A program made the translations under genes and the position numbers. Source: an uncultured Treponema sp. (GTDB lineage: Bacteria; Spirochaetota; Spirochaetia; Treponematales; Treponemataceae). Taken from it: a DNA stretch of 37,513 bases. Position 1 is the first letter of the stretch. Each line of letters opens with the position of its first letter. The DNA lies in the NCBI GenBank assembly GCA_946411215.1, contig CAMKDH010000002.1, forward strand, positions 1 to 37,513. The letters are read 5' to 3'. This document shows positions 9,601 through 33,277 of the stretch, piece by piece. The notes beneath the pieces were generated by a model. The model ran no database searches. It was not told where the DNA came from and saw nothing but the letters and a program-made list of their open reading frames with translations.

Positions 9601-12600
9601 ACTGGCTCTTAATGATGATGAGTATGGTTTTAGAGGTGAAGTAAAAGATAATAAGTCTGGTGTAAAAACTCTTTATTATTGTTTTAATCAAAACGAAACT
9701 GCGCCGACAGATATTTCTGCGTATAATTCAGAACCGGCTTCAAATGGAAATTATATTATTAATAAAACAATTGATACAGGAACAACAGCTTCGGCTGCTG
9801 GAAATCTTTATGAAGGAAACTGGTCCCTTCATATTATTGCCGAAGATAATGCTGGAAACAGAACTACTCCAATAAGTCGTCAGTTTGATATTGATAAGGA
9901 AGCACCTGAATTAACAGAAACCAGTGCTGATGATCTGGGATATAAAAACGGAACCTTTACTTTAAGCGGAAAAGTTTTTGATTCTAACGGATTAAAACCT
10001 GGCAATGAAGTTGTTATTACAGATGATAAAGATAATACATATTCTCCAACAATAGAGTTTGGAACTAATAATACCTGGACAGCTTCAATAGAAGGTCTTT
10101 CGGAAGGAAAGCATACTCTTACAATAACTGCTACAGACAAAGCAGAAAAGACAACAACTCTCAAACGACTTGTAACAATCGACAGTAAAAAGCCTGTTGT
10201 TTCGCAAGATATGATACTTCCAAACGGATATTCTTTTGCGGGTACAAGTGTAACAATCAGCGGAACTACTACAGATGATGCTCCAAGTTCCGGATTAGAA
10301 TGTATTAAATATTTGTTTGCAGACGGCGAGACAGATAGCGCAACTAAATCTCAGGAATTTACTTTGCAGAATGCCGCTTATTGGTCTGAAAATATTGATG
10401 TCTCTGCACTTTCTGGTTCCGAAATGAACGGATTGTTTGAACAGCAGGGAATAAAATATATTTGGGTTACCGCTTATGATAATGCAGGAAACGTTTCTGA
10501 TACTGTAAAAAAATCTTTTGTTTATGACTTAAACAATCCTGTAATTAGTGATGTAAAAATTCAATATACAGGTGAAACAGAAGAATCGGCGCTTGATACA
10601 AATACAATTTACACAAAGAAAACCGGATATACAATTTCTGGAAACTTTAGCGACAGTGGTTCAAATGTAACAATTGGAGTTACAAGCAATGGAGAAAACT
10701 GTACTGTTGAACAGACAGCAAATGCAAAATCAGGTGAATGGCATTTTACAACTTCTGATTTAGCAGATAATAGTTACACTTATATTATTACTGCAACAGA
10801 TGCTTCTGGCCGAATGAATACTGTAACAGCATATATTGTTGTTGATACTCAAAACCCAGAAATTGTAATTACTGAAACAGATGATATTTATAAAAACACA
10901 AATGCACATCAGTTTAGTGGTACAATAACAGAGCCTTATTTAAAATCTGCAAAGGCATATTTATATAAAAACACAACAGCAACGCTCTTTAAGGAAGAAG
11001 CAATTTCTCCTGTAAATGGAAAATGGTCTTGGACAGTAACAGGCCTTGAAGATGCAGAATATATTCTTAAGTTAGAAGCAGAGGACGACGCCGGAAATCA
11101 TAACGAAAAAGCGTCTACAAAAAAACTTGTAATAGATTCTACAAAACCTGTAATAAGTTTATGTGCAGATAAGAAGCTTTTTAATGTATCGGGATCTCCT
11201 GTAAATGCGGGAACTGCACTTAGTGCTTCGGGAACATATTTTGCTAAAGAAGGCTTTACTTTAACTGGAACAATTACAGAAGTAAACTTTAAAGAAGCAA
11301 CAATTAAAAACGGAGACAGTCCTTTAAGCTTTACCTCTGGAGGAACTTCTGCGGGCGAGTGGACATATACACAAGCACAAACTGACGGAGAATATGATTA
11401 TAATATTTTCGTTACAGATGAAGCGGGCAATTCTGAATCTGTTCATATAACTGTAAAAATTGATACTACCGCTCCACAGACAAACAGCATAACAGCTCCT
11501 GTTGAAGGTTCTACAGGCCAATCCGCAATTTCAGAAACTTCGTTTATTTTCAAAGGATTGGCTTTTGATGCCGAAGACAACACAGGTACTGGTGTATCAA
11601 AAATATGGTATGCATTTACAAAGGATGCAACTGCACCTGGAACTGCTGAAGAACCACTTACTGGTTATACAGAGATGGCAGTAAATGATAATGCAGTTTG
11701 GAGTATTCCAAAGACTATTAATTCTGGAACAAGTGCATCTACAAGCGGAAACCTTTATGAAGGCAAGTGGTATCTTCATGTAAAAGCACAGGATTTAGCG
11801 GGTAACATTTCTGAAGCAGCAAGCTCCCGTCAGTTTGATATTGATTTTGCAAAACCAGAAATTTCTCTTGAAGTTGCAAAGTCTGTTTATAATTATTCGG
11901 ATATAACAAGTGGAGCAGGAAGCTTCAGCGTTACAGGAACAGCTTCCGATTCTCAGGCTCTTGCTTTGGTAAAGGTTTTTGCTAAAAAAGGAACAGAAGC
12001 TGCAAAAGAAATTTCTTTAACAGTAACAAACGGAAAAGTAAGTAATGACGATTCCTGGACACAGACTTTCATTTTTGGAGACAGTGCAGATTCAACTGCA
12101 GACAATTATCTTTCAGAAGGCAAATACGATATTTGGGCAGAAGCTAAAGACATTGTAGGAAAAACTACAACAACCGGAAAAATCCAGATTACAATAGACT
12201 ATACAAAGCCAGAAATAAAAGAATCAACTCTAAAGCTAAATGAGCTGAACTATGATATTAATAAATGGTACGACTCAAAAACATTAAAAGTAGATATTGA
12301 GGTAACAGATAATACTTCTGGAGTTTCAACAGTTCAATGTATTACAAAGAAAAATGCTACAGAAGACAGAACGGTACCTCTTTCTAAAGATAATGGCGAT
12401 AGATATACAGGAACAGCCCAGCTTTCTTCCGACGGAGATTCCCTTACAATCAAATTCAAAGCAAAGGATATTGCGGGAAACGAAACTGCAGAAATTACAA
12501 AAACTGTAAAAATTGATACAACTGTGCCAGCGCTTGAATTGTATAAGTACAAAGTTGCAGACGGATCTTTAAAAAGCGCAAACGGAACTGTTTACATAAA

Positions 12601-15600
12601 TGGAACCGCATCTCTAACTGTTTATGGAAATTATTCAGATTTACAAAGTGGAGTACAGGCTCTTACTTTTGCGGGTACTAAAAATTCTGTTCAGCCAACA
12701 GTAACTTATTCAACTGCCGTAGCAAGCGATACAAACACCTCTTATACAATTGATTCTATTACTAATGACAATAAGGCTTCAATAAAATCCTGGAAGGCTG
12801 TATTTGCAAATGCAGATCTTGAAACAGCAACCCTTAGTGTAACTGGTGTAAATAACGCAGGTGCCGAAGGTCTTTCTGTAGAAAAGAATCTCTTTGCAAT
12901 AAGCCGCGATGAATTGCCTCCAACATTAAAGAACCTGAATTTTGCAACAGATTCTGACCATTTTACGGTATATGCTAAGAAAAATAATAGTGGTACTGTA
13001 GAAAACTACTACATAAATAACACACAGGGTAAATTTATTATTTCGGGATTAGTCGAAGACCCTGTTGATGAAAATAATCCAGCTGCGTCTGGAGTAGAAA
13101 GTGTAAAACTTGAAATAGAAGATACGGCCTCTCCAAAGCATACTTATACAAAAACATCAAACACTGCTTATTTTGCAAATATTGATTTAAGTACATTTAC
13201 AACTCCTGCAACTGCAAAAATCACTCTTAATGATTATGCGGGAAACAGTTATACATATACACTTCCACAAATAATATTTGATACTGCAGGTCCTGTAAGT
13301 ATTCATGAAATAGATTCAACAGGAAAAGATATTGTTTTCAGAGTTGGCGATAAAACTAACGATGATATTTCTTCAACAAATGCTTCGACCTATTCTTTAG
13401 CATGGAACACATACACAGACTCATCTGTGGACGCAAGCCATACTTACGAAAAAATAGATGAAGCTGTCGGTGGAAAATATGCAGGCGGAACATTTGGAAA
13501 TTCAACAACTTTAAAAATCCGCGGAAGCTTTGAAGATTCTGGAAGTGGACTAAAGCAGGTTTTCTATAAAATATACGACAGATCAAATTCTCTGATTTTT
13601 GATAATGGCGAAGAAAGATATAATTTAACAGATGCAGAAAAAACACAGCTTGTAGAAGATGTAATTAGTGCTAATCAATATTTTGCACCTTTAACAACTC
13701 CAGATTACAAACGAGTATTCTACAATGTAGACAAATCGGATTATGATTCTGCAACTGTAGAAGATCAGAAGAAATTAGCTTTTGGCGGAAATCAGCTTAA
13801 AGAAAACGGAATAGATGTTACAGAAACAAAGGGCACAATAGAATATTACAAGTTCTGGAAAATAATTGAAACAACTTATTCATTTACAATTCCACAATTA
13901 AATGAAGGTTGTAATTATCTTGTTGTTGTAGCCGAAGACAATGTTGGAAATTATTATCTTGATACTTCAGATCCAATAGATCATGATAATGATTCATCAA
14001 CAGGTCCTCGTTCATTCTCAAACTTCTCTATGAATCTTGATACAACTTCTCCTACAATTGAACTTCAAGATCCAGCTTCTACAACAATAGTTTATACAAG
14101 TGATAGTTATACTATAAAAGTTAAAGCAACTGACCCTGGAGTTTTGGGCGTAGAAAATTCTTCTTCGGGAATAAAATCGGTTTCTTTAACTGGAAACGGA
14201 CAAACTGTGTCTTGTAGTAAATCGGCAACAGAAGATGATATTTGGGAAGCAAATGTTGAAGCGCTGCTTAAGGAAAATGATTCTGTTACAATTTCGGCAA
14301 CAGTAAAAGATGTGGCAGGAACTTCATCCGATAAGGTTGTTGCAAATATCTTTAAAGATATTACAAAACCAAGTGTAAGTATAACAGCGCCTGCTGATGC
14401 AGATAAAGATACTGCTGATATTCAGGTAAACGGAACAATTTCTCTTAAAGGAACAGCTAACGATAATTCAGGCGGAAGTGGACTCAAAGAAGAATCTTCT
14501 GGCAGCAAAACTCTCAAACTTTATTACACAACAAACAGTGAACTTGGTGGTAAAGAAGCAGCAGAAATAGCAGCTGAGGATATAAAATCTCAAAATACTC
14601 AGACAGCTTCAGATAAATTTATTTTTATACAGGAAACAGATAATTCACCTTCATGGCAATTTGAAAATCTTGTAACTTCAAAGATTGATGGAACTACAGC
14701 CATCACCGATAACACAGCTGTATATTTTATGGTCAGCACTCAGGATAAATCTGGAAATATTGGATATTCAAAACCACAAAAAGTAATAGTAAATCAAAAT
14801 ACAGATAGACCTGTTCTTGTGCTTTCTCAAATTTCTAAAAATACAGTAAAGACTCTTAAAACAAAAACAGTTTACGGATCCGTTTCTGATGATGATGGAA
14901 CTTTGGAAAAATTGTGGTTCTATTCTGGTGCAAAAGAGCAGATGCCGGCTTTACCTGAATTTAATGCAGGTAATAAAACCTGGACTGCTACCGGCTGGAC
15001 CGAAATAACAATAGACGGAAACTCTTGGACAGTCGATTCAGAAGAAAACGATGGCGAAACAACATGGTATTTTGCGCTTGCCGATGCAAATCATTCTTTA
15101 TTTGCAACTGTTGGCGATGATGAAATGAAACATCCGTATCTTAAGTATAATGATACTGAAAATAAAGTTGACGGAGCTTCAACAGGAGTAACATTCAAAT
15201 ACGATACAAATCCGCCAACACCAACATATTTGTATCTTTATAAGGCACAAAAAAATACAACAACAGCTCTTACAACAATTGCTGTCGATACAACTATTCC
15301 TTGGACAACAGAAAGCAATATAGCGTTTGGTGCGGCTTATGATGTTCTTTATGCAAAGGTAATTGTTGAAGAAGGAACAGCAATGAAGAACCTTACAGGA
15401 GCAAATGGTGCATTACCAACATCAACACCAGTTTCTATAAGTTATAAAAACAGCCAGGGCGTTTCTCCTTTGACATATGAAAAGATTCTTGAAGTTGCGG
15501 GAACCGAAAATGAAGCGGGTAAGTATACTTATTATCTTGGTCCTCTTGTAATGGATACTACAGAACAGCATGAATTCAAAATAACAGTAGAAGATGCTGT

Positions 15601-18600
15601 AGGTAATAAGGGTTATATCAGTCGAAGCATTATTGTAGATAATGAAGGTCCAGCTTCTTTAACAAATGTAAAACCATCAAAGCTGGAAGCAGTAAGTGGA
15701 GTAGTTAACTTCCGCGGTAGTGTAAGTGATAATGAAAACGGCTCGGGCATTCTTTATGAAACAAATGAAAATAATGAAATTACTGCTTATGGTGTTGAAT
15801 GGTATATTCCAACCTATGGTCAAGTTTCTGCAGGCGCTGAGGCAATTACAACAGGATGGGCATATCCAACTTCTAAGGGAACTGCTTCCTGGGAAATTGA
15901 GTTTGAAAATCTTGGAACAATAATTGGTTATAATGCTTCAAGTTACGAAGTTAGTGCTAATTATAAAGATTTTGAAACAGGATCAAATACAGGTCTTTAT
16001 GATATTCCTGTATGGTTCCGACTTACAGATGCTGTAGGAAATGTTGGTTATATAACAAATAATTCAATCCGTTATAATCCGAATGCAGACCGCCCGGTTG
16101 TTCAAATTACTTATCCGGTTCACGAAGATGGAAAAGATTATGTTACAATGGGTGGAACAATCAATATTTCTGGTATGGCAAATGATGATGACGGCATTAC
16201 CGCTGTATATCTTCAGTTTGATATGGATGGCGATAATACTTATGAAAATGGAGTAGGTATTTCAGGAACGCCATTTACTAATTCCGAAATAGTTGATATT
16301 CCAAATACAAATCCAGTTCAAAAAGGTGTTCTTGCAAACGGAACAAAGAGCTGGTATAAAACTCTGAGCATAAATAATATCAGTAATCCTATTATTAAAG
16401 TTCGGGCAATATCAATTGAAAAAGATTCCGAAAAAAATACTGCAGACTTGCTTGTAAGTGCCTGGTCTGATGTTCTTAATATTCAGGTTAATAATGATGT
16501 TCCGACTTTCTCTAATATTAAATTAAAGAAATTTAATACAGTACCAACTTCTGCAACTTTGTCTGGCCTGACTCCTTCGGGCGAAATGGATTATGCTTCC
16601 GATATGTTTATAAAAGGAAGTGATACAAGCTGGTACCTTACAGGCGAAATAAATGTTGCAAATACTACAACAATTTCGAGTGTAGTTGTAAGAGGCGCTG
16701 TTTCTTATGATTATACAAATGATGAAAATAATACAAATGATACTTTAATTTCATATCTCACAAACGCAAATAAAAAATGTTATTTTGCAATTCCTGTTGC
16801 ATTGGCAAATAACGCTGGTTCAACCTGGGAAACAACAATTACAGCTACCGATAAAACAACCGGTCAGCCACAATCAAACAGATTCCAGGCTGTTATTAAT
16901 CTTGATAAAACAGCTCCAAACTTTACAGATGTAAAAACAGTTGGTGAAAATGAAGAAATCAAGCTTTATAAAAATTCCTATGGCGCTTCCGGTGTAGAGC
17001 TTTCAACAGCATCTTCAGATAATTATGTTCAAAATTCAAACGGTTCATTTACTTTGACCGGAAAAATAAACGAAGAAGGTAGTGGTTTTGAAAGACTGGC
17101 CTTCTATTTTGAACGCAAGGGTTCCGGGGCAGACACAGCAAATAGAATTTACAATCCTATGGAAAAGCATGGAGACGAAAATCTTGCTAACAGAACAAAT
17201 CTGTCTTCTTCTCAAGCAAACGGTAGTGTTTCTATAAATTCAGATGGTTTGCCGGCTCTTTATCTTACAGGAGTAACACGAACAAATAATCTTGCCATTA
17301 AATCTGCTGCTCTTAAAAATAATAAGAATATTCGTAAAGGTGGACTTGTAAAAATTGGTGATGTATATCGTTTGATTGATAATATCGATAACCGCGATGT
17401 AGACGGAACCATTACCTTTACACCAGGCTGCGATACTTCATTTACGATTGCAGAATTTATTTACGCAATGGTAATTGATAACAACGGTGAAAGTACAAAC
17501 ATAGATGGTTCACTTAAGAATGATGACGGCGATGGAATGGTTGAATCTTTCACAAAGTCTGGTACAAACTATATATGGGATGCCAACCTTGATTCTAAGC
17601 ATATTCCTGATGGTCCAATAGAAATTCACTGTGTTGTATTTGATAAGGCAGGAAATTCTAGTCATGGTTATACAACAACAAAAGTAAGCAATAATCCTCC
17701 GCGTATTACAAGTGTAATGTTTGGAACAGATTTGAATGCTGATGGTAATTTTGAGCTTGGCACAGAAGACTCAGAATTTAAGACCTACTATGTTTCGACA
17801 AATGTAAATGGTACCGGAAATAAAACAATTGGTACTGAGCGCTGGGATCTTGAAGCTAAGATTGATGATACAAATTACTGGACAGCAAAGAGAGGACTTG
17901 TTGTAATTCCAGAGTTTGTTGGTGGTACAGGAACAATTTATTATAAGTATTCAAAGAGTATAGGAGCAAATGCAGAAGGACTTACAAGTGCGGCAGAAGG
18001 AACACTAACAGGAACGGCAACCATAAAGGCTCTATCTGCTTCTGATGAAAATATCAGGGATGGTGAAAATCAGGCTACAATATCAGCAGCGAGCGGAAAC
18101 ACAACAGGTGTTATTATTCTTGCAAATGGAGATACTGATAGTCTTACAACAATCAGCAAAACTACCGGAGAAATAAGTTCATCATATACATATCCAAATG
18201 TTTACAGCTTCAGCTTCTGGGATTCTACAGAAGGTTGTACACCAGGACAAGATTCTCAGTGGTCTGTTTTGAATGCTAAGTTCAAGCAGGATCTTGTTGA
18301 TGATACACCTCCAACAGGAACGATCACACCATTCTATTGGAACAGTCTTACAGAAAATTCTGTATATACTTCAAAAGCTGTTGAAGATATTTCTTCTGTT
18401 GCCGATCTTGAAGGTCATATAGAGCTTGAAGGTGATTTACCTGCAGATACATTCGATGAAGCTAGCGGTGAGTTCGATAATAATCCTAAGGTTTCGGGAA
18501 AAATCAAGATAGAAGGAAATGCCTTTGATGAAACAAGAATTTCTTCAATAACAGTTTCGTTTGCAGATAAGACTGTTGTTGCAACATATAATTCAATTGC

Positions 18601-21202
18601 AAAAACCTGGACGTTTACAGGCAATGAAGAAAATATTTATAAACTTACAATTATAGACCCAGATGGTCCAAATCAGCAGGGCCATGCTGTAACCTGGGAA
18701 TTGCTTGCAGACACAAGTGCTGTTACAACAGGAAAAGCTGCTGCAACAGATAAAACAATAACTGTTACAGTAGAAGATGCTGCAGATGGTACACATAACT
18801 CCAGCACTCCAGGAACAACTCAAACAGGCGAAACAAAAACCGGCTACTACAAGGTTGATATTGTACCGTATATTACAGGTGTAAAAACCGCTTTGTCTGA
18901 TCTAAAGAAGAACAATCCTAGTGTTTACGCAAGAACTGCCCTTGGTCATTATTCAGTAGCTGCTACCGAAACAATTAAAATTACTGGATTCAACCTTACA
19001 GGTGGTACTGTTAAGTTCACTGGCGGCGCTACAGCTTCTTACAATGCAGAAGGAATTGCTTTAACAGCTTTGTCTACTGCAAAATCTGGCAGCATGAGCA
19101 TTGCTGTTAATGAAGTAGAATCTTTGAACAACAGCAACAACGATGATGGTCATGGTTCTTACGACAAGACAGTAAACCTTGCAACAACACCAACAGGCGA
19201 CAAAACAATTTTCACCAACTACTACAACCGCCAGCCTAATGGCGACAACAACAACAGACTCACTGATGATGTTGTGGTGGATATTTGGGATTTGGATCCA
19301 ACCGCAGTTTACCCAATGCGCCAGAAAGGTGGTATTGCACAGGCAATTATGAAGATAAATCCAGCTACTGATCAGCTTGGATTTGCGTTTGCGAACGGAG
19401 CGGCTTATTTTAGTATGCCAGGTAAGACGGTAGAAGCGGCAAGGGATACTTCGGTTGTTGCCTGGGAAGGATTTAATGTAAAAGAATTTAGTAAATTACG
19501 AGATTACTCATATACTTATTGGAATGGAGAACTTGAACCATTTACTTCTGTTGGTTTTGCCTATGATAAATATGGATATTCGTATGGTGTTGCCAGTGGT
19601 GGAGATATAAACTCAGGATCTGGAAATAGTATTGATTTCTTTAGCTTCATGACAGATCGTTGGGGAAAAGCTTTAGGTGATACGGATAATAGTAGTTCTA
19701 GTGATAATACAGGAAGACATAAGAGTTCAAAACATGACCAGAATTCTATTCGTATTGAAACAAATGGTCTTAAGATTGATGGAGCTAGTGTCTTTGAAAC
19801 AAAGAGAATAAGATCTCCTTCTGTTGTCGTTTCTGCACATGGTAATAACGCTTCTTCAACAGATACAAATGTTTATCTTGCATATTTTGATGTATTGACA
19901 GCACAAATTAGATTCAGAGCAGGAAATATTGGTGAAACACTAACAGGAGTAAATTCAAATAATTATAATACAACAAAATTTTATAAATTAACAAAACTAG
20001 AAAAATCTGATACCACAGGATTATCATTTTATAGTATTAGTGAAAGTCCTTATTGGAATCTTACAGATGGAAATAGGGTAAAGATTTATACAGATGATGA
20101 TGAAGGCAATAAAATTTTGGTAGATGATTATAAGAATAATGAATATGTAATTTACAATTTACATGTTAATAATAAAAAATTTGCATTGTTGTTAAGTAAT
20201 TCAACTTCTACAACAGAACCACTTCCTTTGTATGATTCTTCAACGTCAACAAAATTAATGGAAGGTACGTATTACATACAAGCTATTCCAGAAAAGAGCA
20301 AGGGCTTTTTTGGTAATTTTACAAATACATTTGGAACAAATAATAAGAATAATATAACTCCAGCTTCTAGCAAAACAAATGTTGGAATTATTGCTAGCGA
20401 TTCAACTGCTGGAGAGTACATATCTATGGGTGTTATTCCAAAAGGCTCAACAGGAGGTTTGTCTACCGACGATGTTGTTGTAATTGTCTGGTACGGCGAT
20501 GATTTGAAACTTCATTATGCATATAACACAACACCATCTACAATCCGTGGAAATGGAAGCACAGCAGGTTGGACATCTACAACTTTGTTTACTGGTGATT
20601 TAGAACAGGCTGGAGAATATTGTCAGCTGGCTGTAGATGCAAAAGGTGGTATCCATATTGCAGGACTTGACTCAACAAACAGCGATCTTATTTATGCGTA
20701 TATCGCCAAATATAACGAACCAAATAATGTACAAACTTGTATTGTAGATTCAAGTGGTATTGTTGGTGATAACCTGATGATTGATGTTGCAATGAATGGA
20801 AGTGGAACAGATGCAAAAGCAATCCCAAGAATCAGTTACTATAACTCATCAACAAAGAGACCAAAGCTTGCCTATCTGGTTGACACAACACAGGCAAATC
20901 CTGCTGGTGCAAATAATGATTTGTTTACAGGAAAATGGGAATGCGCTGTTGTTCCAACTTCTAGTAAGATCGATTTATCTGACAGTGGAAACAAGATTAA
21001 TGTTGGAGTCTGGAAAGATGATTATGGAGTTGTAAAAAATTCAACACCTATAACAAAAGTACAATCTGTGGATCATGTAAACAATTATTATTCAACCTCG
21101 TACGGAATAGTCGGTGGTAATGGCTCTGCAAATGCAGTTTTAGGTTATATCATCAAAAAAGATTCTACAACCAACACCATCGAAACCGCCCAGATGAGGT
21201 AA
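6644..21202 (+). CDS. Giant (4852 aa) Ig-like-repeat surface lipoprotein with an IPT/TIG-like segment and a propeller-like C-terminus
   Basis: Single intact ORF, SD ggagga, spirochaete-type lipobox (IISIISC, Cys at about residue 26). Over 20 recurrences of the domain-boundary pattern (x-I/L-D-x-x-x-P-x-I: TIDNTPPVIVI, IFDVSAPEISI, VIDSTKPVISL, KIDTTAPQTNS, NLDTTSPTIEL, NLDKTAPNFTD...) and DNAGN/DxxGN loops. Confidence 0.9.
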   Translation: MKLQKVFLKNALIFIFLFSIISIISCEIGLGAAVDIQPPGLTIDNPKMNSIIRDSFAITGSWNDDGSIDDVYAILKRTDGKLVDGVHEEKRIQGEWSSSDDDRNKGSWKVIVEPLSETEKLLDGIYQATVYIQDKSKHITTQTSSFTIDNTPPVIVITRPSTSINAKSFDTYGQLFTLEGQAADDNNVSLIEVQVYNDEACTDFNHSISLKNVPNSINMDAAIYDKEQGGYISQDEEKYVFEVPLEQAGSGKEFYCKIVAYDGAQKYPIDENEKQDSDEKGNNADYYYLYKDIATVVLQNYKITEVYSILNGTYSSENSRSAITPEEVIELIGSEELKTSIGKFILNPTNNPTFQITGRSPLLLNGEDFIDAKNDVSNGGQIVVEVSPGLDGILLDEESLKVYAQKCDANGKVAEGTPKIYFTDASVQESGTSYRFSIIIRRSDGFEIGGNYIVGVEGHDQSTTKNPVEPAGKAYGFHMASSGNAPALEVTTPASGEDVYKRAGQSQIFSGTIQVEAGVPVLNIYKTGVEDPIITKNFTLADAITLNSRTEYSFSEEVSDFGTTSGKQVYKLVASFDGVTSPIVEREIIFDVSAPEISITQPQLANKYDEDGNIVTTSKFVNGTIAFEISAKDRGGAGLGNASNPSQATAKYEVLVEGQAVLSEEINLENDVAVAVDTTNPKINGKTFIFRVTAQDNAGNLGVSNDENFTYFADQNTDVPYFVKHILSAEEISDGKKDFDFNMTQISAYNSLNKTNKLGTVTKGDYLKFRCYDDDGTVRITIKNKRLVSNTQSDWENNINNLITVYNKTKDTKALTEFDDYQFPNTDDDCGFYEYVIILSDGNKTETIGPFLVNVAKDKATIKVEVSPEYARDENNFSNKITITPSMPPYSAYRKIEGNVDAEGNLIIENLPIGTETSPGVYEFSDLEVTDELNASQLLANENPVIYYVVDGNNQASTEFKVILKKDNDAPETVTITAPPAGKINKLALNDDEYGFRGEVKDNKSGVKTLYYCFNQNETAPTDISAYNSEPASNGNYIINKTIDTGTTASAAGNLYEGNWSLHIIAEDNAGNRTTPISRQFDIDKEAPELTETSADDLGYKNGTFTLSGKVFDSNGLKPGNEVVITDDKDNTYSPTIEFGTNNTWTASIEGLSEGKHTLTITATDKAEKTTTLKRLVTIDSKKPVVSQDMILPNGYSFAGTSVTISGTTTDDAPSSGLECIKYLFADGETDSATKSQEFTLQNAAYWSENIDVSALSGSEMNGLFEQQGIKYIWVTAYDNAGNVSDTVKKSFVYDLNNPVISDVKIQYTGETEESALDTNTIYTKKTGYTISGNFSDSGSNVTIGVTSNGENCTVEQTANAKSGEWHFTTSDLADNSYTYIITATDASGRMNTVTAYIVVDTQNPEIVITETDDIYKNTNAHQFSGTITEPYLKSAKAYLYKNTTATLFKEEAISPVNGKWSWTVTGLEDAEYILKLEAEDDAGNHNEKASTKKLVIDSTKPVISLCADKKLFNVSGSPVNAGTALSASGTYFAKEGFTLTGTITEVNFKEATIKNGDSPLSFTSGGTSAGEWTYTQAQTDGEYDYNIFVTDEAGNSESVHITVKIDTTAPQTNSITAPVEGSTGQSAISETSFIFKGLAFDAEDNTGTGVSKIWYAFTKDATAPGTAEEPLTGYTEMAVNDNAVWSIPKTINSGTSASTSGNLYEGKWYLHVKAQDLAGNISEAASSRQFDIDFAKPEISLEVAKSVYNYSDITSGAGSFSVTGTASDSQALALVKVFAKKGTEAAKEISLTVTNGKVSNDDSWTQTFIFGDSADSTADNYLSEGKYDIWAEAKDIVGKTTTTGKIQITIDYTKPEIKESTLKLNELNYDINKWYDSKTLKVDIEVTDNTSGVSTVQCITKKNATEDRTVPLSKDNGDRYTGTAQLSSDGDSLTIKFKAKDIAGNETAEITKTVKIDTTVPALELYKYKVADGSLKSANGTVYINGTASLTVYGNYSDLQSGVQALTFAGTKNSVQPTVTYSTAVASDTNTSYTIDSITNDNKASIKSWKAVFANADLETATLSVTGVNNAGAEGLSVEKNLFAISRDELPPTLKNLNFATDSDHFTVYAKKNNSGTVENYYINNTQGKFIISGLVEDPVDENNPAASGVESVKLEIEDTASPKHTYTKTSNTAYFANIDLSTFTTPATAKITLNDYAGNSYTYTLPQIIFDTAGPVSIHEIDSTGKDIVFRVGDKTNDDISSTNASTYSLAWNTYTDSSVDASHTYEKIDEAVGGKYAGGTFGNSTTLKIRGSFEDSGSGLKQVFYKIYDRSNSLIFDNGEERYNLTDAEKTQLVEDVISANQYFAPLTTPDYKRVFYNVDKSDYDSATVEDQKKLAFGGNQLKENGIDVTETKGTIEYYKFWKIIETTYSFTIPQLNEGCNYLVVVAEDNVGNYYLDTSDPIDHDNDSSTGPRSFSNFSMNLDTTSPTIELQDPASTTIVYTSDSYTIKVKATDPGVLGVENSSSGIKSVSLTGNGQTVSCSKSATEDDIWEANVEALLKENDSVTISATVKDVAGTSSDKVVANIFKDITKPSVSITAPADADKDTADIQVNGTISLKGTANDNSGGSGLKEESSGSKTLKLYYTTNSELGGKEAAEIAAEDIKSQNTQTASDKFIFIQETDNSPSWQFENLVTSKIDGTTAITDNTAVYFMVSTQDKSGNIGYSKPQKVIVNQNTDRPVLVLSQISKNTVKTLKTKTVYGSVSDDDGTLEKLWFYSGAKEQMPALPEFNAGNKTWTATGWTEITIDGNSWTVDSEENDGETTWYFALADANHSLFATVGDDEMKHPYLKYNDTENKVDGASTGVTFKYDTNPPTPTYLYLYKAQKNTTTALTTIAVDTTIPWTTESNIAFGAAYDVLYAKVIVEEGTAMKNLTGANGALPTSTPVSISYKNSQGVSPLTYEKILEVAGTENEAGKYTYYLGPLVMDTTEQHEFKITVEDAVGNKGYISRSIIVDNEGPASLTNVKPSKLEAVSGVVNFRGSVSDNENGSGILYETNENNEITAYGVEWYIPTYGQVSAGAEAITTGWAYPTSKGTASWEIEFENLGTIIGYNASSYEVSANYKDFETGSNTGLYDIPVWFRLTDAVGNVGYITNNSIRYNPNADRPVVQITYPVHEDGKDYVTMGGTINISGMANDDDGITAVYLQFDMDGDNTYENGVGISGTPFTNSEIVDIPNTNPVQKGVLANGTKSWYKTLSINNISNPIIKVRAISIEKDSEKNTADLLVSAWSDVLNIQVNNDVPTFSNIKLKKFNTVPTSATLSGLTPSGEMDYASDMFIKGSDTSWYLTGEINVANTTTISSVVVRGAVSYDYTNDENNTNDTLISYLTNANKKCYFAIPVALANNAGSTWETTITATDKTTGQPQSNRFQAVINLDKTAPNFTDVKTVGENEEIKLYKNSYGASGVELSTASSDNYVQNSNGSFTLTGKINEEGSGFERLAFYFERKGSGADTANRIYNPMEKHGDENLANRTNLSSSQANGSVSINSDGLPALYLTGVTRTNNLAIKSAALKNNKNIRKGGLVKIGDVYRLIDNIDNRDVDGTITFTPGCDTSFTIAEFIYAMVIDNNGESTNIDGSLKNDDGDGMVESFTKSGTNYIWDANLDSKHIPDGPIEIHCVVFDKAGNSSHGYTTTKVSNNPPRITSVMFGTDLNADGNFELGTEDSEFKTYYVSTNVNGTGNKTIGTERWDLEAKIDDTNYWTAKRGLVVIPEFVGGTGTIYYKYSKSIGANAEGLTSAAEGTLTGTATIKALSASDENIRDGENQATISAASGNTTGVIILANGDTDSLTTISKTTGEISSSYTYPNVYSFSFWDSTEGCTPGQDSQWSVLNAKFKQDLVDDTPPTGTITPFYWNSLTENSVYTSKAVEDISSVADLEGHIELEGDLPADTFDEASGEFDNNPKVSGKIKIEGNAFDETRISSITVSFADKTVVATYNSIAKTWTFTGNEENIYKLTIIDPDGPNQQGHAVTWELLADTSAVTTGKAAATDKTITVTVEDAADGTHNSSTPGTTQTGETKTGYYKVDIVPYITGVKTALSDLKKNNPSVYARTALGHYSVAATETIKITGFNLTGGTVKFTGGATASYNAEGIALTALSTAKSGSMSIAVNEVESLNNSNNDDGHGSYDKTVNLATTPTGDKTIFTNYYNRQPNGDNNNRLTDDVVVDIWDLDPTAVYPMRQKGGIAQAIMKINPATDQLGFAFANGAAYFSMPGKTVEAARDTSVVAWEGFNVKEFSKLRDYSYTYWNGELEPFTSVGFAYDKYGYSYGVASGGDINSGSGNSIDFFSFMTDRWGKALGDTDNSSSSDNTGRHKSSKHDQNSIRIETNGLKIDGASVFETKRIRSPSVVVSAHGNNASSTDTNVYLAYFDVLTAQIRFRAGNIGETLTGVNSNNYNTTKFYKLTKLEKSDTTGLSFYSISESPYWNLTDGNRVKIYTDDDEGNKILVDDYKNNEYVIYNLHVNNKKFALLLSNSTSTTEPLPLYDSSTSTKLMEGTYYIQAIPEKSKGFFGNFTNTFGTNNKNNITPASSKTNVGIIASDSTAGEYISMGVIPKGSTGGLSTDDVVVIVWYGDDLKLHYAYNTTPSTIRGNGSTAGWTSTTLFTGDLEQAGEYCQLAVDAKGGIHIAGLDSTNSDLIYAYIAKYNEPNNVQTCIVDSSGIVGDNLMIDVAMNGSGTDAKAIPRISYYNSSTKRPKLAYLVDTTQANPAGANNDLFTGKWECAVVPTSSKIDLSDSGNKINVGVWKDDYGVVKNSTPITKVQSVDHVNNYYSTSYGIVGGNGSANAVLGYIIKKDSTTNTIETAQMR

Positions 21203-26621: not shown

Positions 26622-27062
26622 TTAACCTAAAAGTTTATAAAGCAGCTGATAAAGTTTTTTTGCTTCGGCTTGTGTGAGGGTAGAGCCGAAGGCTTCATTA
26701 TTAGCGGCAAGTTCCAGCGGGATATTCTTGCACTTTTCTTTGAGTTCGTTTCCTTTTTTAGTGATAGTTATATTTGTTATGCGTTCATCTTTTTTAGAAC
26801 GCTGTCTTGTTACATAACCATCCTTTTCAAGATGTTTAAGAAGAGGGGTGAGAGTGCCGGCATCTAGATGAAGAATGTTTCCAAGCTGTCCGGCAGTTAC
26901 TGATTCTTTTTCCCAAAGAACCATGAAAACAATATATTGAGTGTAAGTAAGTCCTAAGGGTTTTAGATAAGGTGTGTACTGGGCAACAATTTTACGGGCA
27001 CAAGCGTAAAGAGGAAAACAAAGTTGATTCTGTAATAAAAGCTGTTCGTATTGCTGACTCAT
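26622..27062 (-). CDS. MarR/OhrR-family transcriptional regulator
   Basis: LCFPLYACARKIVAQYTPYLKPLGLTYTQYIVFMVLWE (conserved reactive-Cys region of OhrR) and LDAGTLTPLLKHLEKDGYVTRQRSKKDERI winged helix. Confidence 0.9.
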   Translation of the reverse strand: MSQQYEQLLLQNQLCFPLYACARKIVAQYTPYLKPLGLTYTQYIVFMVLWEKESVTAGQLGNILHLDAGTLTPLLKHLEKDGYVTRQRSKKDERITNITITKKGNELKEKCKNIPLELAANNEAFGSTLTQAEAKKLYQLLYKLLG

Positions 27063-27095
27063 TCTGGTACCACCTTATCTGATATAATATGCAAA

Positions 27096-27638
27096 CTACA
27101 AAAGACTTGCAACACAAGAGGCAACATCTGCCATTTTTGCAGTTGGTTCAAAACGTGCAACAACATTTCCCTGGCGATCAATTACGAACTTTGTAAAGTT
27201 CCATTTGATGTCCGGATTCTTTTTATAGTTCTTATCAATACCTTTAAGCATAACGCTCATTGCAAGAGCTGCAGGACCTTTTCCAAAACCTTCAAAGCCT
27301 TTCTGATCTTTAAGGAAGCGGAACAAAGGAAGTTCATTTTCGCCATTTACATCTGATTTTTTCATTTGAGGAAATTTAGTGTTGTACTTGAGTGTACAGA
27401 ATTCGTGAATCTGATCATCAGTGCCAGGAGTCTGTCCCGCAAACTGATTACAAGGAACATCAACAACCTCAAAGCCCTGGTCGTGATATTTTTCGTACAT
27501 TTCTTCAATGTCTTTGTAGTGAGGAGTAAAGCCACAGCCTGTAGCAGTGTTTACAACAAGAACAACTTTTCCTTCGAAGCTCTTCATAGAAACTTCTTCA
27601 CCTTTTGGTGTCTGAACTGAATAATCATAAAATCCCAT
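27096..27638 (-). CDS. Glutathione peroxidase-family (Cys-type) peroxidase
   Basis: VNTATGCGFTPHY, DVPCNQFAGQTPG, WNFTKFVIDRQGNVVARFEP motifs. Start at MGFYDYS with SD ggagga; the longer ORF-track start reads into the promoter. Confidence 0.93.
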   Translation of the reverse strand: MGFYDYSVQTPKGEEVSMKSFEGKVVLVVNTATGCGFTPHYKDIEEMYEKYHDQGFEVVDVPCNQFAGQTPGTDDQIHEFCTLKYNTKFPQMKKSDVNGENELPLFRFLKDQKGFEGFGKGPAALAMSVMLKGIDKNYKKNPDIKWNFTKFVIDRQGNVVARFEPTAKMADVASCVASLL

Positions 27639-27658
27639 ATCTGGTTCCTCCGTTTGTT

Positions 27659-27701
27659 TATATTTAATCAAATTATATTTGATTAAATATATTATTGTCA
27701 A
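27659..27701 (-). promoter_or_regulatory. gpx-marR promoter with overlapping palindromic operator
   Basis: Minus strand: TTGACA (27701-27696), 18-nt spacer, TATAAT (27677-27672). Perfect palindrome of 14-bp arms with 5-nt centre spans 27659-27691. Confidence 0.72.
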
Positions 27702-27726: not shown

Positions 27727-29079
27727 TTAAAACTTAAACGAAGCATTTATTGCTATGGTGCTTAAATCTTTGTAGGCTCCGTATTGGCCGTCGCGGTCGG
27801 GGCCGGGGAGGAAGATGTAAGCGGTTGTACCTAGCGAAATCTGGTCCGACAGGCTGTACTTTATTGATGGCGAAAGCATGCTGTCAAAGTCATTCAAACC
27901 GATAACGCCTGCAAAGCTTAATTCCAAAGTTTCGTTAACAAGTGATTTTGAAATGCTCAAGGTTGCGCCATGCTGGTAGGCATCTGTGCGTTCCAAAGAG
28001 TCCAAGTCACCGAATACATAATCGCAGTAGTATTGTGCAGTGAGTGTCCAGCCGCTAGGCATCCAGTCTAAACCGGCGAGGGCAGAAAGCTGATTTCTTT
28101 TGACATCCTGTGGGTCCTGAGTTTGTCGAAGGACTTCATTAAGAATCTCTTCTGCTGATTTTTGGAAATATCGCTGTGGGAAGAAAGCTGTTTCCAGGCG
28201 AAGGACTGTTGGACCAATTGGCAGCGCTGCATCAGCTCCCACCATGGCCATGCGTTTGTATTCACCGTCTACAGTTATACCATTTGGAAGCGCAGTTGCA
28301 GGATTTGATGGATCCATAGGTGCGCCAAATGTTATTCCGTAATTAAGGAGAGGAATATCATCCCAGCCGTAGAAACCGTAAAGTGATAAATCGAGGGCAG
28401 AAAAATATCCTGAAAGTTTTAGACCGTATTCACCATTCAAGATTGCGAGAGCTGGTTTTTCAAACTCATTGATCGTTACTGGAAGCTGCAAAGTTGTGTT
28501 CATTGCAGGGATAGGAAAGTCCACGGTTGAAGGAACTATGAATTTACGAAGACTGTTTCCTTCATCTAGAGGGAGTGCTGTTGGAGTGAAGAACGGGATC
28601 CACCAGGCATCGGCAGTAAAGGAGTTTCCGTTAAAAGAAAGGCGAATTGTATCTACTGAAAGTTTTCCGTCGTCACTTGTCATTGCGGAAAAACTTGACT
28701 TATCTGACGGGCACAAAATATTTGTGATGTCTATTCCATCAGCCTTGCCCCAGGCTGCTTTCTGGCGGCCAATTCGTAGGCCCCAAAAGGATTCTGTATA
28801 ATCTAACCAAAGTTCTCCGAGTGAAAAATTAAGATTGTTTTTAAGAGCGTCGTAAGAAACTGTGCCTTCTGCAAGAGCAGAGCTGTTTCCATACCAGGCG
28901 TCTACCTTGCCGGTAAAGTTAGTGTTACCTAACGAAAAATCTCCAGAGGTATCGTCATTTGTCCAGGGAGCAAAAATTCCCCAGGAAGTTGAGATGTCTC
29001 CGGAAAATTCTACGCCGTCGGCAAACAGGAATGGGGTAATTACAAATAATATTAGTGTTATGAAAAATATTTTTCTCAT
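27727..29079 (-). CDS. Outer-membrane beta-barrel protein, DUF1302-like
   Basis: Signal peptide MRKIFFITLILFVITPFLFA; FWGLRIGRQKAAWGKADGIDITNILCPSD motif; alternating aromatic strands; C-terminal ...STIAINASFKF. The upstream ORF extension (MDCHVATLLAMTECAVIASPKDVAIHI) is repeat DNA read through. Confidence 0.78.
   Translation of the reverse strand: MRKIFFITLILFVITPFLFADGVEFSGDISTSWGIFAPWTNDDTSGDFSLGNTNFTGKVDAWYGNSSALAEGTVSYDALKNNLNFSLGELWLDYTESFWGLRIGRQKAAWGKADGIDITNILCPSDKSSFSAMTSDDGKLSVDTIRLSFNGNSFTADAWWIPFFTPTALPLDEGNSLRKFIVPSTVDFPIPAMNTTLQLPVTINEFEKPALAILNGEYGLKLSGYFSALDLSLYGFYGWDDIPLLNYGITFGAPMDPSNPATALPNGITVDGEYKRMAMVGADAALPIGPTVLRLETAFFPQRYFQKSAEEILNEVLRQTQDPQDVKRNQLSALAGLDWMPSGWTLTAQYYCDYVFGDLDSLERTDAYQHGATLSISKSLVNETLELSFAGVIGLNDFDSMLSPSIKYSLSDQISLGTTAYIFLPGPDRDGQYGAYKDLSTIAINASFKF
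28102..28134 (-). repeat. Family C repeat inside the beta-barrel CDS, in frame
   Basis: Minus strand gtccttcgacaaactcaggacccacaggatgtc, encoding VLRQTQDPQDV. Confidence 0.65.
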
Positions 29080-29097: not shown

Positions 29098-29176
29098 GTG
29101 GATTGCCACGTCCTTCGGACTCGCAATGACAGCGCATTCCGTCATTGCGAGGAGCGTAGCGACGTGGCAATCCACG
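29098..29176. repeat. Palindromic intergenic repeat, family A copy 2 (inside-out arrangement)
   Basis: gtggattgccacgtccttcggactcgcaatgac - agcgcattcc - gtcattgcgaggagcgtagcgacgtggcaatccac. Confidence 0.88.
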
Positions 29177-29190
29177 TATTTGATGGCCTG

Positions 29191-29970
29191 TTACTTAACT
29201 CTTCCCTTTTCCAAGGCAGCTACTGTAAACAATGAATCGTCAATGTCTTCGTCGTCATAAACGATGTTCTTTGATTCAATAAGAGACCAGGTTCCTGACT
29301 GCACATTTTCCATTTTCATAACCTGAGCAGTTGTAAAGCCTTTGATTGTTGTAAAGTTTGTACAGGTCAATACACGGTGAAGCTGATCCTGGCGGTCAAA
29401 GAATTCACACTTACGCATAATGTAATCAGCCTTACCAATGTATGTGATGTAACGAGGATCTTTTTCTGTGTGAGCCTTGCTTATACATTCAACCTTATAG
29501 CAGGCAACACCGTCGATGTTATCTTCGCCTAACAAATTGTAATCGTATTTGTTGATGCTACGATCGCCCATATCCTGATAAGTGAAATCTGTGCCCATAA
29601 AGCTTCCTTCACTTTCGGAACCACTTGAAGCAATACGACGTGTCTTTTTCATAGCAGGAAGATAAAGCCAATTGTCAGAATCCTTGTCGTCATCGTCGTA
29701 ATCAAACATAAGATAACCAGTTCCTGCAACATCCTTTGGGGTTGTAAATACGATTACGCTTTTTTCAACGTCACCGTAATCCTTGCTCATCATAATTACT
29801 TCGCGGAGTCGGTCCGAACCTTTCTTTGAATGAATTGTGAGTGTAGCTGTTGAAGAAGAAGTTTTAGGTTCAGCAACTTCATCTGCCTTTTTCATAATGT
29901 CGTAGCCACTTTCTGCAAAAAGTGCGGCTCCCAAAAATAATGCTGTAATTGATAAAAGAATCTTTTTCAT
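29191..29970 (-). CDS. Outer-membrane lipoprotein-sorting (LolA-like) protein
   Basis: Signal peptide MKKILLSITALFLGAALFAES; STATLTIHSKKGSDRLREVIMMSKDY, GTGYLMFDYDDDDKDSDNWLYLPAMKKTRRIASS, SFMGTDFTYQDM typical of the LolA-like family found beside MMPL/RND exporters. Confidence 0.88.
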   Translation of the reverse strand: MKKILLSITALFLGAALFAESGYDIMKKADEVAEPKTSSSTATLTIHSKKGSDRLREVIMMSKDYGDVEKSVIVFTTPKDVAGTGYLMFDYDDDDKDSDNWLYLPAMKKTRRIASSGSESEGSFMGTDFTYQDMGDRSINKYDYNLLGEDNIDGVACYKVECISKAHTEKDPRYITYIGKADYIMRKCEFFDRQDQLHRVLTCTNFTTIKGFTTAQVMKMENVQSGTWSLIESKNIVYDDEDIDDSLFTVAALEKGRVK

Positions 29971-29994
29971 AGTGTTTCTCCTTGTAGCGTTAGC

Positions 29995-30062
29995 GTCATT
30001 GCGAGCGAAGCGCGGCAATCTACAATAATGGATTGCCACGTCGCTTCGCTCCTCGCAATGAC
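29995..30062. repeat. Palindromic intergenic repeat, family A copy 3
   Basis: gtcattgcgagcgaagcgcggcaatc-tacaataatg-gattgccacgtcgcttcgctcctcgcaatgac. Confidence 0.9.
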
Positions 30063-30068
30063 GATAGT

Positions 30069-32423
30069 TTATTTATTCTCTTTGCCAAACGGCTTTGTGA
30101 TATAAAGAAGTACCGGCGTCAATGTGTAGTCGGCAACAAGGGCGCTGCCAAGACCTACAATTGAAAGCCAACCGATATTTACCAGGACAGTCATTGTGCT
30201 TGTAAGGAAGATTCCAAACATGGCACAGAGGATAACTGTTGTCATAATCATTGTTTTTCCAATTTCGCGATATGAGTTTAAAACTGCCGATCGGTAGTTT
30301 CCTGTAAGCTCAAAGTGATATTTAATATGGTTTGTAAAGTGGATTGTATCATCAACCGCAATACCAAGAATCATCGGCATAATCATTGCAGTGATCATAT
30401 CAAGGTTTACGCCAGCATAACCCATAATTCCTCCGATGATGGCGATTGGAGCAACATTAGGAATCATTGCAATAAAGCCTGTGCGGAATGAAGTGAATGC
30501 AACAATCAAAAGAATAAGAATTACAATAAGCGATGTGCCGATTGAACGCAGCGAACCTCGTACAAGCTTTCCGTTCATATGAGCATACTGAACAACTTCT
30601 CCAACTACACCTGCATTTGATGCATCCGGAAAAAGCTCTGCACACCATTTTTTTACTTCGGCAAGATCCTGAACAATTTGTTCGCCATCATAACCGCTAA
30701 GTTCAATGTGAAGGTATCCGGCCTTAAAGTCTTCGCTAACATAATTGTAAAGATCGCTTCCTCCGGAAATTTCGTAGAGGAACATTTCCTGACTAACAAG
30801 ATCCTGGTCGTCCGGAATTACATAAAAGTCAGGGGCGTCGCTGTTGAGGGTACGGTTCATTTCTTTGACAACCTTTGTTACAGAAGAAACTCGTGGTTTT
30901 CCGTTAGAAACTTTTGTCGAACCTAAAGTTCCAATGCGCGCTGCAAGTTCATCCATATTCTTAAGAACCTGCGGATTTTTCAAAGCATCCTCTTCCTGAT
31001 ATTCAACAAGAACTTCGTAGCTGTACTGGCTTCCAAGCTGACTGCGGGTAATTTCCATAAGGCGGTGAATATAAGGAGTTCGCTCACCCATCATGTCGGC
31101 ATAGTTCATATTAACTTTGATTTTGAACATGCCCGGAATTACTGCAATAATTACTGCTGCACCAACAACAACTGTAATCCACTTTTTATTGAGAATTGAT
31201 TTTCCCATTGCTTCTACACGAAGATCTGATTTTGTTGAACCTTCTGTGCTTACAAAGTTGGGATCCGGTTCCTGATCTTTTCCAAAGCTGTAAAGACAAG
31301 GAAGAAGGATTATTTCAAAAATGAAAACAGCAAGAACAGCCGCAGCAGTAATTCCTCCAACCCAGCGCATTGGTCTGATGTTTGCAGAAAGGAATGAAAG
31401 CATACCTGCCATTGTAGTGATTACTGTAAAAAACAAAGCCCAACCGGAATCTCGTATACCCATTACAACAGATTCTTTTCGTAATCCTGTTTTTCTAAAG
31501 TACATCTTAAAGCTGTTGATATAGTGAACTGCATAACCTACTGCGAGAGCCATTGAAAGGAGGACGGTTATAAGAATCATTGTGTTGTTTCCCTTTATGT
31601 TCATCCAGGCAGAAGCACCAAGTGTTGTACAAAGAGCGCCAATTGTTGCAATAGATGGAACAACAACTCCACGAAGAGAGCGTATAAAGATGATAAGGAA
31701 AATGAGCATTACTACAAAACCCAAAGCGATTCTGCTTATACACTGACTTACGATAGATTTTTCTTCTTCGTATTCTGTATATGAAAGTCCGGCTGGACGG
31801 ATTTCCCATTTATCTGATTTATATTTTGGATCTGTAAAGATTGCCATTGCTGGTGGAGCAATTTTGTTCATTGCTTCATCAAGACTTTCTGAATACTGTT
31901 CAAGATTTACGATGAGCCAGGTTTCTGTGCTGTCATCACTTACAAGATTGTTTACAAGTGATTCGCGGCTCATGATAAAGGCTTTCTTTTCTGCAAGCTC
32001 GGTTGGGTCTGTTGGAACTCCGTCTTCAAAAGGACTTGTTACTTCAAAACCGTCGTCTGTTCCAATTGGGAGAGAGAGTTCCATAAGAGAAGTGATGCTT
32101 CCTGCATAAGGAACATTGTTCAAAAGCTCGTCTCCAAGCTCGTCTATCATCTGTAAAACTTCCGGATCAAAAACATCGTCGGCTTTGATATGAGCCAGAA
32201 GGCTGTCTGTTGAACCAAAAATACTTTCAAAATGATCCTGATTTACTTTTGTTGTTTCCCAGTCGTCAAACCAGTCTTCTTCTCCGTTATCCAGCTTGAG
32301 TCTTGTAAGTCCAAGGCTACAAACGATTGTTACAATCAAGAGGCCAATGATAAAGCCCCAGCGATGTTTTACTTCAAAACGACCAAATTTTTCGAACCAG
32401 TCGTTGATTTTCTTAACCTGCAT
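30069..32423 (-). CDS. MMPL/RND superfamily exporter
   Basis: Two blocks of TM segments after periplasmic loops; GFIAMIPNVAPIAIIGGIMGYAGVNLDMITAMIMPMILGIAVDDTIHF signature. Start MQVKKIND with SD aggaga; the longer ORF-track N-terminus is repeat DNA. Confidence 0.93.
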   Translation of the reverse strand: MQVKKINDWFEKFGRFEVKHRWGFIIGLLIVTIVCSLGLTRLKLDNGEEDWFDDWETTKVNQDHFESIFGSTDSLLAHIKADDVFDPEVLQMIDELGDELLNNVPYAGSITSLMELSLPIGTDDGFEVTSPFEDGVPTDPTELAEKKAFIMSRESLVNNLVSDDSTETWLIVNLEQYSESLDEAMNKIAPPAMAIFTDPKYKSDKWEIRPAGLSYTEYEEEKSIVSQCISRIALGFVVMLIFLIIFIRSLRGVVVPSIATIGALCTTLGASAWMNIKGNNTMILITVLLSMALAVGYAVHYINSFKMYFRKTGLRKESVVMGIRDSGWALFFTVITTMAGMLSFLSANIRPMRWVGGITAAAVLAVFIFEIILLPCLYSFGKDQEPDPNFVSTEGSTKSDLRVEAMGKSILNKKWITVVVGAAVIIAVIPGMFKIKVNMNYADMMGERTPYIHRLMEITRSQLGSQYSYEVLVEYQEEDALKNPQVLKNMDELAARIGTLGSTKVSNGKPRVSSVTKVVKEMNRTLNSDAPDFYVIPDDQDLVSQEMFLYEISGGSDLYNYVSEDFKAGYLHIELSGYDGEQIVQDLAEVKKWCAELFPDASNAGVVGEVVQYAHMNGKLVRGSLRSIGTSLIVILILLIVAFTSFRTGFIAMIPNVAPIAIIGGIMGYAGVNLDMITAMIMPMILGIAVDDTIHFTNHIKYHFELTGNYRSAVLNSYREIGKTMIMTTVILCAMFGIFLTSTMTVLVNIGWLSIVGLGSALVADYTLTPVLLYITKPFGKENK

Positions 32424-32442
32424 GTTGTCTCCTGTATGTCTC

Positions 32443-32503
32443 GTCATCACGAGCGCAGCGAAGTGATCCACTAGCATGGATTGCTTCGCTGCGCTCGCAA
32501 TGA
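32443..32503. repeat. Palindromic intergenic repeat, family A copy 4
   Basis: gtcatcacgagcgcagcgaagtgatcca-ctagca-tggattgcttcgctgcgctcgcaatgac. Confidence 0.85.
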
Positions 32504-32536
32504 CGATGCTGTGTGTTAGTATGCACTAACGTTTTT

Positions 32537-32632
32537 GATAACACTGTTATCGTTAACAGATAATAATGATAACGGTGTTATCTTGTCAATAGAATTTTGA
32601 AGAATTTGACAAATTTTGATAACAATGTTATC
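32537..32632. promoter_or_regulatory. TetR divergon control region: three GATAAC-N3-GTTATC operators plus divergent promoters
   Basis: gataacactgttatc (32537-32551), gataacggtgttatc (32568-32582), gataacaatgttatc (32618-32632). Plus promoter TTGACA 32606-32611/TATCTT 32629-32634 (17 nt); minus promoter TTGACA 32589-32584/TATTAT 32565-32560 (18 nt). Confidence 0.85.
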
Positions 32633-32641
32633 TTTTATCCT

Positions 32642-33277
32642 ATGAGCGAATCCGCAACCGAAACAAAAAGTAAAATTCTCGAAAGTGCAAAAAAGGAATT
32701 TCTGGAAAAAGGCTTTATGAATGCCTCTTTGCGTACAATTGCGTCAAATGCAGGAGTTACTACAGGTGCAATGTACCGTCATTTTAAGGACAAAGATGCC
32801 CTTTTCTGCGCACTGGTAGACGACGCTATTGCCGTAACAACAAAAACAGTTATGCTTGCAGATGTTATGAATCATCAGGATTTGGATAATGTTGTTTCGG
32901 AAAAACATTTTGAAGAAGAAGAAAAACAAACAAACGATCTTTTAAATTATATTTTTGATAATTATGATGCATTTACTTTACTGCTTACAAAATCAGCAGG
33001 AAGTACCCACGAACATTTTCAGGAAGAAATCTGCGATTTATACACAAAAAATTGCGCTCAAACCTTTAACTGGATGTTCCAGAACAAAATTGCAACAAAA
33101 AAAATCGACAAAATGACTGTTCATTTTATAGCATCAACAGTTATAAATGCCTTCGTAGAAATCATCACCCACAAAATGTCAAAAAAAGCAGCCTTTCAGT
33201 ATATCGAAAATATTGAAGAATACACTCGCTACGGAATGATTCACATGATGGGTATTCCGTGTGAGCATCACGAATAA
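32642..33277 (+). CDS. TetR/AcrR family transcriptional regulator
   Basis: TKSKILESAKKEFLEKGFMNASLRTIASNAGVTTGAMYRHFKDKDALFCALVDDA, canonical TetR helix-turn-helix. Confidence 0.95.
   Translation: MSESATETKSKILESAKKEFLEKGFMNASLRTIASNAGVTTGAMYRHFKDKDALFCALVDDAIAVTTKTVMLADVMNHQDLDNVVSEKHFEEEEKQTNDLLNYIFDNYDAFTLLLTKSAGSTHEHFQEEICDLYTKNCAQTFNWMFQNKIATKKIDKMTVHFIASTVINAFVEIITHKMSKKAAFQYIENIEEYTRYGMIHMMGIPCEHHE

Follow-up and report, generated by a model that had tools for sequence, protein, structure and literature searches.

The window, which is the whole stretch of 37,513 nucleotides analysed here from contig CAMKDH010000002.1 of an uncultured Treponema sp. (assembly GCA_946411215.1), carries a gene for a TetR/AcrR-family regulator and, on the opposite strand, three genes for an MMPL/RND transporter, a LolA-like periplasmic protein and a DUF1302-like outer-membrane barrel protein, whose order is conserved in relatives. 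The region between the regulator and transporter genes contains three exact matches to GATAAC-N3-GTTATC, with start-to-start spacings of 31 and 50 bp, and two divergent promoters, both called as consensus matches (Table 1).

Table 1. Features of the regulator and transporter locus, in positions of the window
Feature	Position	Strand	Description
DUF1302-like outer-membrane barrel protein	27727-29079	-	Pfam DUF1302 2.8e-08; start inferred
LolA-like periplasmic protein	29191-29970	-	Pfam LolA_like 6.7e-54, DUF1329 1.4e-10; start inferred at the methionine of MKKILLS
MMPL/RND transporter, HAE3-like	30069-32423	-	784 aa from corrected start; Pfam MMPL; NCBIfam TIGR00921 HAE3 4.6e-54, below the curated cutoff of the model
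REP-like palindromic repeat	32442-32505	-	strong hairpin; in predicted 5' leader of MMPL mRNA
Operator 1	32537-32551		GATAACACTGTTATC; exact palindrome; about +2 to +16 of predicted MMPL transcript; conserved in relatives
MMPL-operon promoter, predicted	32560-32589	-	TTGACA-18-TATTAT; consensus scan, 11/12 matches
Operator 2	32568-32582		GATAACGGTGTTATC; exact palindrome; within -35/-10 spacer of MMPL promoter (spacer 32566-32583)
TetR promoter, predicted	32606-32634	+	TTGACA-17-TATCTT; consensus scan, 10/12 matches, TG before -10
Operator 3	32618-32632		GATAACAATGTTATC; exact palindrome; in TetR promoter spacer, overlaps -10 (32629-32634)
TetR/AcrR-family regulator	32642-33277	+	211 aa; Pfam TetR_N (PF00440) E 2.2e-14; AlphaFold pLDDT 93.1

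The PF00440 match of the regulator scores 53.4 bits against a cutoff of 24, and its AlphaFold model has nine helices in an all-helical two-domain fold. A fold search with this model gives TetR-family proteins as the top PDB matches, with MtrR, PfmR and DesT as the nearest folds; these matches are general to the family and point to no ligand. MtrR of Neisseria and DesT of Pseudomonas are repressors with hydrophobic ligands, which resemble the Treponema regulator in fold but share only 17-22% identity with it and have operators and targets different from its own. The most likely start of the transporter gene is the ATG at 32423, and an upstream start at 32477 was rejected, because the best alignments of 39 relatives have residue 19 of the longer reading as their first position and GGAG stands before this ATG. 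The 18 extra codons of the longer reading are partly repeat sequence.

Exact matching and the promoter scan recover the palindromes and both pairs of promoter hexamers where the original prediction, made from the letters alone, had located them. It had also put operator 1 near the start of the minus-strand transcript, now predicted at about 32553, operator 2 in the spacer of the minus promoter and operator 3 in the spacer of the plus promoter, overlapping its -10 hexamer, and all three placements agree with the scan. Exact copies of the 15-mer number three in the whole metagenome-assembled genome (MAG), all at the window operators; this MAG has 2.52 Mb and is 75% complete, so further operator targets could be missing. 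The three palindromes are not a product of chance, since 300 Markov-1 copies of the window contain no exact match and those in the MAG are confined to these three.

A search of Treponema genomes with the TetR protein gives 77 orthologue loci with at least 50% identity, and 73 of them have one site or more with at most one mismatch. Three or more sites are present in 61, and the usual number is three to four. The consensus from these loci is G(A/G)TAAC-RNY-GTTA(T/C)C, in which the central base is free; the RNY centre is kept in 164 of the 166 exact sites. The MMPL gene lies upstream of the TetR gene on the opposite strand in 71 relatives, which is the divergent arrangement of the window. Loci of other TetR genes (20 paralogues with 26-37% identity) contain no exact site, and within 665 kb of orthologue loci the derived consensus does not occur beyond the region upstream of TetR. 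Clustered copies are also found in other genera of the family to which Treponema belongs, where each of the five site-bearing loci that were fetched has this TetR together with this MMPL. In Treponema and in these genera, the sites track the TetR orthologue group and the divergent MMPL gene.

The genome search for the 15-mer had been proposed as a means to define the regulon and to hint at the ligand. It gives a regulon of one locus, in which the exporter is the sole pointer to the ligand. In the genomes searched, the 15-mer is rare outside the TetR locus. An extra match in L038 was rejected as a target because it falls inside a FlaA-like gene, and another at 7844 in L187 because it lies inside a 577-aa open reading frame. 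In three genomes with many matches (G082, G169 and G188), most of the extra copies have GAA/TTC or AAA/TTT centres that violate the RNY rule. As far as the sequences tell, the regulon appears to be essentially a single locus, made up of TetR and the MMPL(HAE3)-LolA-DUF1302 genes.

Rearranged loci serve as natural experiments on this association. In L188, the lolA-DUF1302 pair is about 6.6 kb away from the MMPL gene, with other genes between them (L188:4437-11079), and the detached lolA has its own TTGACA-18-TATTAT promoter 66 bp upstream, with GATAACACTGTTATC exactly in the spacer. The TetR gene of L086 has lost its divergent position relative to the MMPL gene, but one operator remains immediately 5' of the TetR -35 hexamer. 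These two loci link the operator independently to each of the genes predicted to be regulated. L127 has a TetR gene without a nearby MMPL gene and has no operator even at two mismatches, which is a single case of co-loss of transporter and operator.

The placement of the operators is more constant on the exporter side than on the regulator side. The exporter promoter is conserved in relatives as TTGACA-17/18-TAnnAT, and its spacer of 17-18 bp holds an operator, as operator 2 does in the window, in 66 of the 73 loci. On the other side, the operator begins 21-24 bp upstream of the TetR -35 hexamer in at least 34 relatives, with its centre near -50. Among the strong promoters detected, only those of the window and of L064, its nearest relative, have an operator within the TetR core promoter, so that operators overlap both core promoters in these two loci and the exporter promoter alone in most relatives. 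The statement that the operators are set inside both promoters is thus correct for the window and L064 and fails as a general rule. Autoregulation, which was also proposed, appears well founded for the window, while the geometry on which it depends is specific to the lineage and appears to be a derived feature. Because the TetR-side operator is upstream of -35 in most relatives, steric repression of TetR is less certain there and autoregulation may vary. The transcription start of tetR is predicted at about the A of its ATG at 32642, and its mRNA is therefore predicted to be leaderless. The same is likely for the orthologue group, as 61 of the 73 loci have no Shine-Dalgarno-like motif before the TetR start and many have a predicted transcription start at or next to the ATG.

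The reading that accounts best for these features is a local one-component switch, in which TetR would repress both the exporter operon and itself until a ligand releases it, and we hold this to be highly probable. Each of the three 15-bp palindromes would be a binding site for a TetR dimer, which would obstruct RNA polymerase at the MMPL-LolA-DUF1302 promoter from operator 2 (and operator 1) and at the TetR promoter from operator 3. Release of TetR, and with it induction of both transcripts, would come from a ligand that is likely to be hydrophobic and likely to be exported by the transporter itself. The comparison of loci directly establishes the sequence of the site, its exclusivity to the locus, its co-conservation with TetR and the operon, its placement in the spacer and its helical phasing. 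The assignment of the site and of its presumed target genes is strongly supported.

Two other roles for the palindromes can be set against this switch. They could be bound by a regulator other than the neighbouring TetR, and L121 would fit this, because it keeps three operators between tetR and a DAHP-synthase-like gene without an MMPL gene upstream (L121:1458-2743), an exception which is a possible rewiring or assembly artefact. Within the scanned orthologue loci, however, sites occur only beside a TetR orthologue, and similar sites stand upstream of distant TetR homologues, which makes another regulator very unlikely. These homologues include L140 and L141 of Lachnospiraceae (38-39% identity), with two site copies 16 bp apart, which in L140 adjoin, together with the TetR homologue, an ABC exporter. 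They also include L152, a paralogue with 34% identity, where two near-copies overlap and one of the two falls within a TTGACA-TATAAT spacer. In view of the sites at L140, L141 and L152, the DNA specificity may predate the link to MMPL. It is even harder to see the palindromes as RNA elements or as parts of dispersed repeats: each of them could form a short hairpin and a REP-like repeat lies nearby, but operators 2 and 3 are inside predicted promoters and do not belong to the predicted transcripts, the sequence of the REP-like repeat is distinct from theirs, and the genome shows no dispersed copies of the 15-mer. We give this last idea practically no credence.

Other readings accept TetR as the binding protein and differ in what it does. 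It might act as an activator at one promoter, for instance its own through the upstream operator of most relatives, since a site 21-24 bp upstream of -35 is compatible with activation; the blocking positions of operator 3 over the -10 in the window and of operator 2 in the exporter spacer, the latter shared by nearly all loci, speak against this, and activation seems improbable. It is conceivable, and we put it forward tentatively, that TetR dimers on one face of the DNA touch each other or form short loops and act as a unit. The helical-turn spacing noticed in the window is indeed present there and also across relatives, where adjacent operators cluster at 19-23, 29-31, 39-43 and 50-51 bp, centred on 20, 30/31, 40/41 and 50 bp, and never lie at 24-28 or 32-38 bp. 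The phase vector is 0.88 in 33 loci with less than 80% TetR identity, while the highest value among 5000 random draws is 0.43, and the distance between operators 1 and 2 differs between the window and L064 by exactly 11 bp, about one helix turn. This phased spacing suggests that TetR would bind on the same face of the DNA. The phasing test is weakened, however, by shared ancestry and promoter constraints, as sites fixed to promoter elements could give the same pattern, and besides a few outliers there is a minor class of adjacent spacings at 15-16 bp, with ten pairs at 16 bp out of phase. A cooperative reading by TetR of 2-5 phased operators, whose number and spacing shift by whole turns from one species to another, with one site fixed in the exporter spacer throughout, is therefore a possibility to which we lean less than to its opposite. 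From the patterns described above we infer binding by TetR, repression and not activation, release by ligand and an export function, and the locus is very likely a genuine switch of a conventional type, in which a repressor regulates itself.

The tetR/tetA system of Tn10 is a divergent regulator and exporter pair, in which the palindromes tetO1 and tetO2 overlap both promoters and are about 30 bp apart. Its operator sequence, exporter class and ligand are all different from those of the Treponema locus. A comparable regulatory logic is found in Mycobacterium abscessus, where the TetR-family repressor MAB_4384 is divergent from mmpS5/mmpL5 and has a palindromic operator in the intergenic region, with a model of autorepression and of induction by exporter substrates (PMC5895659). 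Both loci have a divergent TetR, an MMPL-family exporter and an intergenic palindrome, while MAB_4384 has one 27-bp operator instead of three separate 15-bp operators and its exporter has MmpS as a partner instead of LolA-like and DUF1302 proteins. The transporter set itself has a counterpart in AmeABCD of Castellaniella defragrans, which consists of an HAE3 RND transporter with LolA-superfamily (DUF1329) periplasmic and DUF1302 outer-membrane proteins and has been linked experimentally to the export of apolar monoterpenes (PMC6394551). The HAE3, LolA/DUF1329 and DUF1302 components are common to both, whereas the gene order differs, and the three genes of the Treponema cassette show no Pfam or NCBIfam family match to an AmeC-like second periplasmic protein, so the cassette is not classed as an AmeABCD-type member.

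A literature search on the operator sequence, on Treponema TetR-efflux systems and on Treponema REP elements found no description of this TetR-exporter system. For the regulator of this predicted lipophile-type exporter of gut Treponema, phylogenetic footprinting defines the operator precisely as G[A/G]TAAC-RNY-GTTA[T/C]C and limits the regulon to one locus. The operator array across species is a natural spacing series for tests of cooperativity, and the promoter with an operator in its spacer could be a ready-made regulated promoter for reporters in E. coli or for tools in poorly tractable bacteria.

The REP-like repeat (CGTCATTGCGAG...) in the predicted MMPL leader is one of several at the locus, and other copies lie between the operon genes at 29994-30063 and at about 29140-29174. 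The genome contains 45 matches to the repeat, full or partial, and the centre of the leader element is absent at the loci of relatives. The fold of the MMPL leader has -61.6 kcal/mol with a z of -9.2, and the leader copy is predicted to fold into a highly stable hairpin 5' of the MMPL ribosome site. Downstream of the DUF1302 gene, on the same strand, there are genes for a glutathione peroxidase and an OhrR-like MarR regulator (26622-27701), the first of which was not found in the flanks covered at relatives' loci. Elsewhere in the window, positions 6644-21202 of the plus strand form one open reading frame of 4852 codons.
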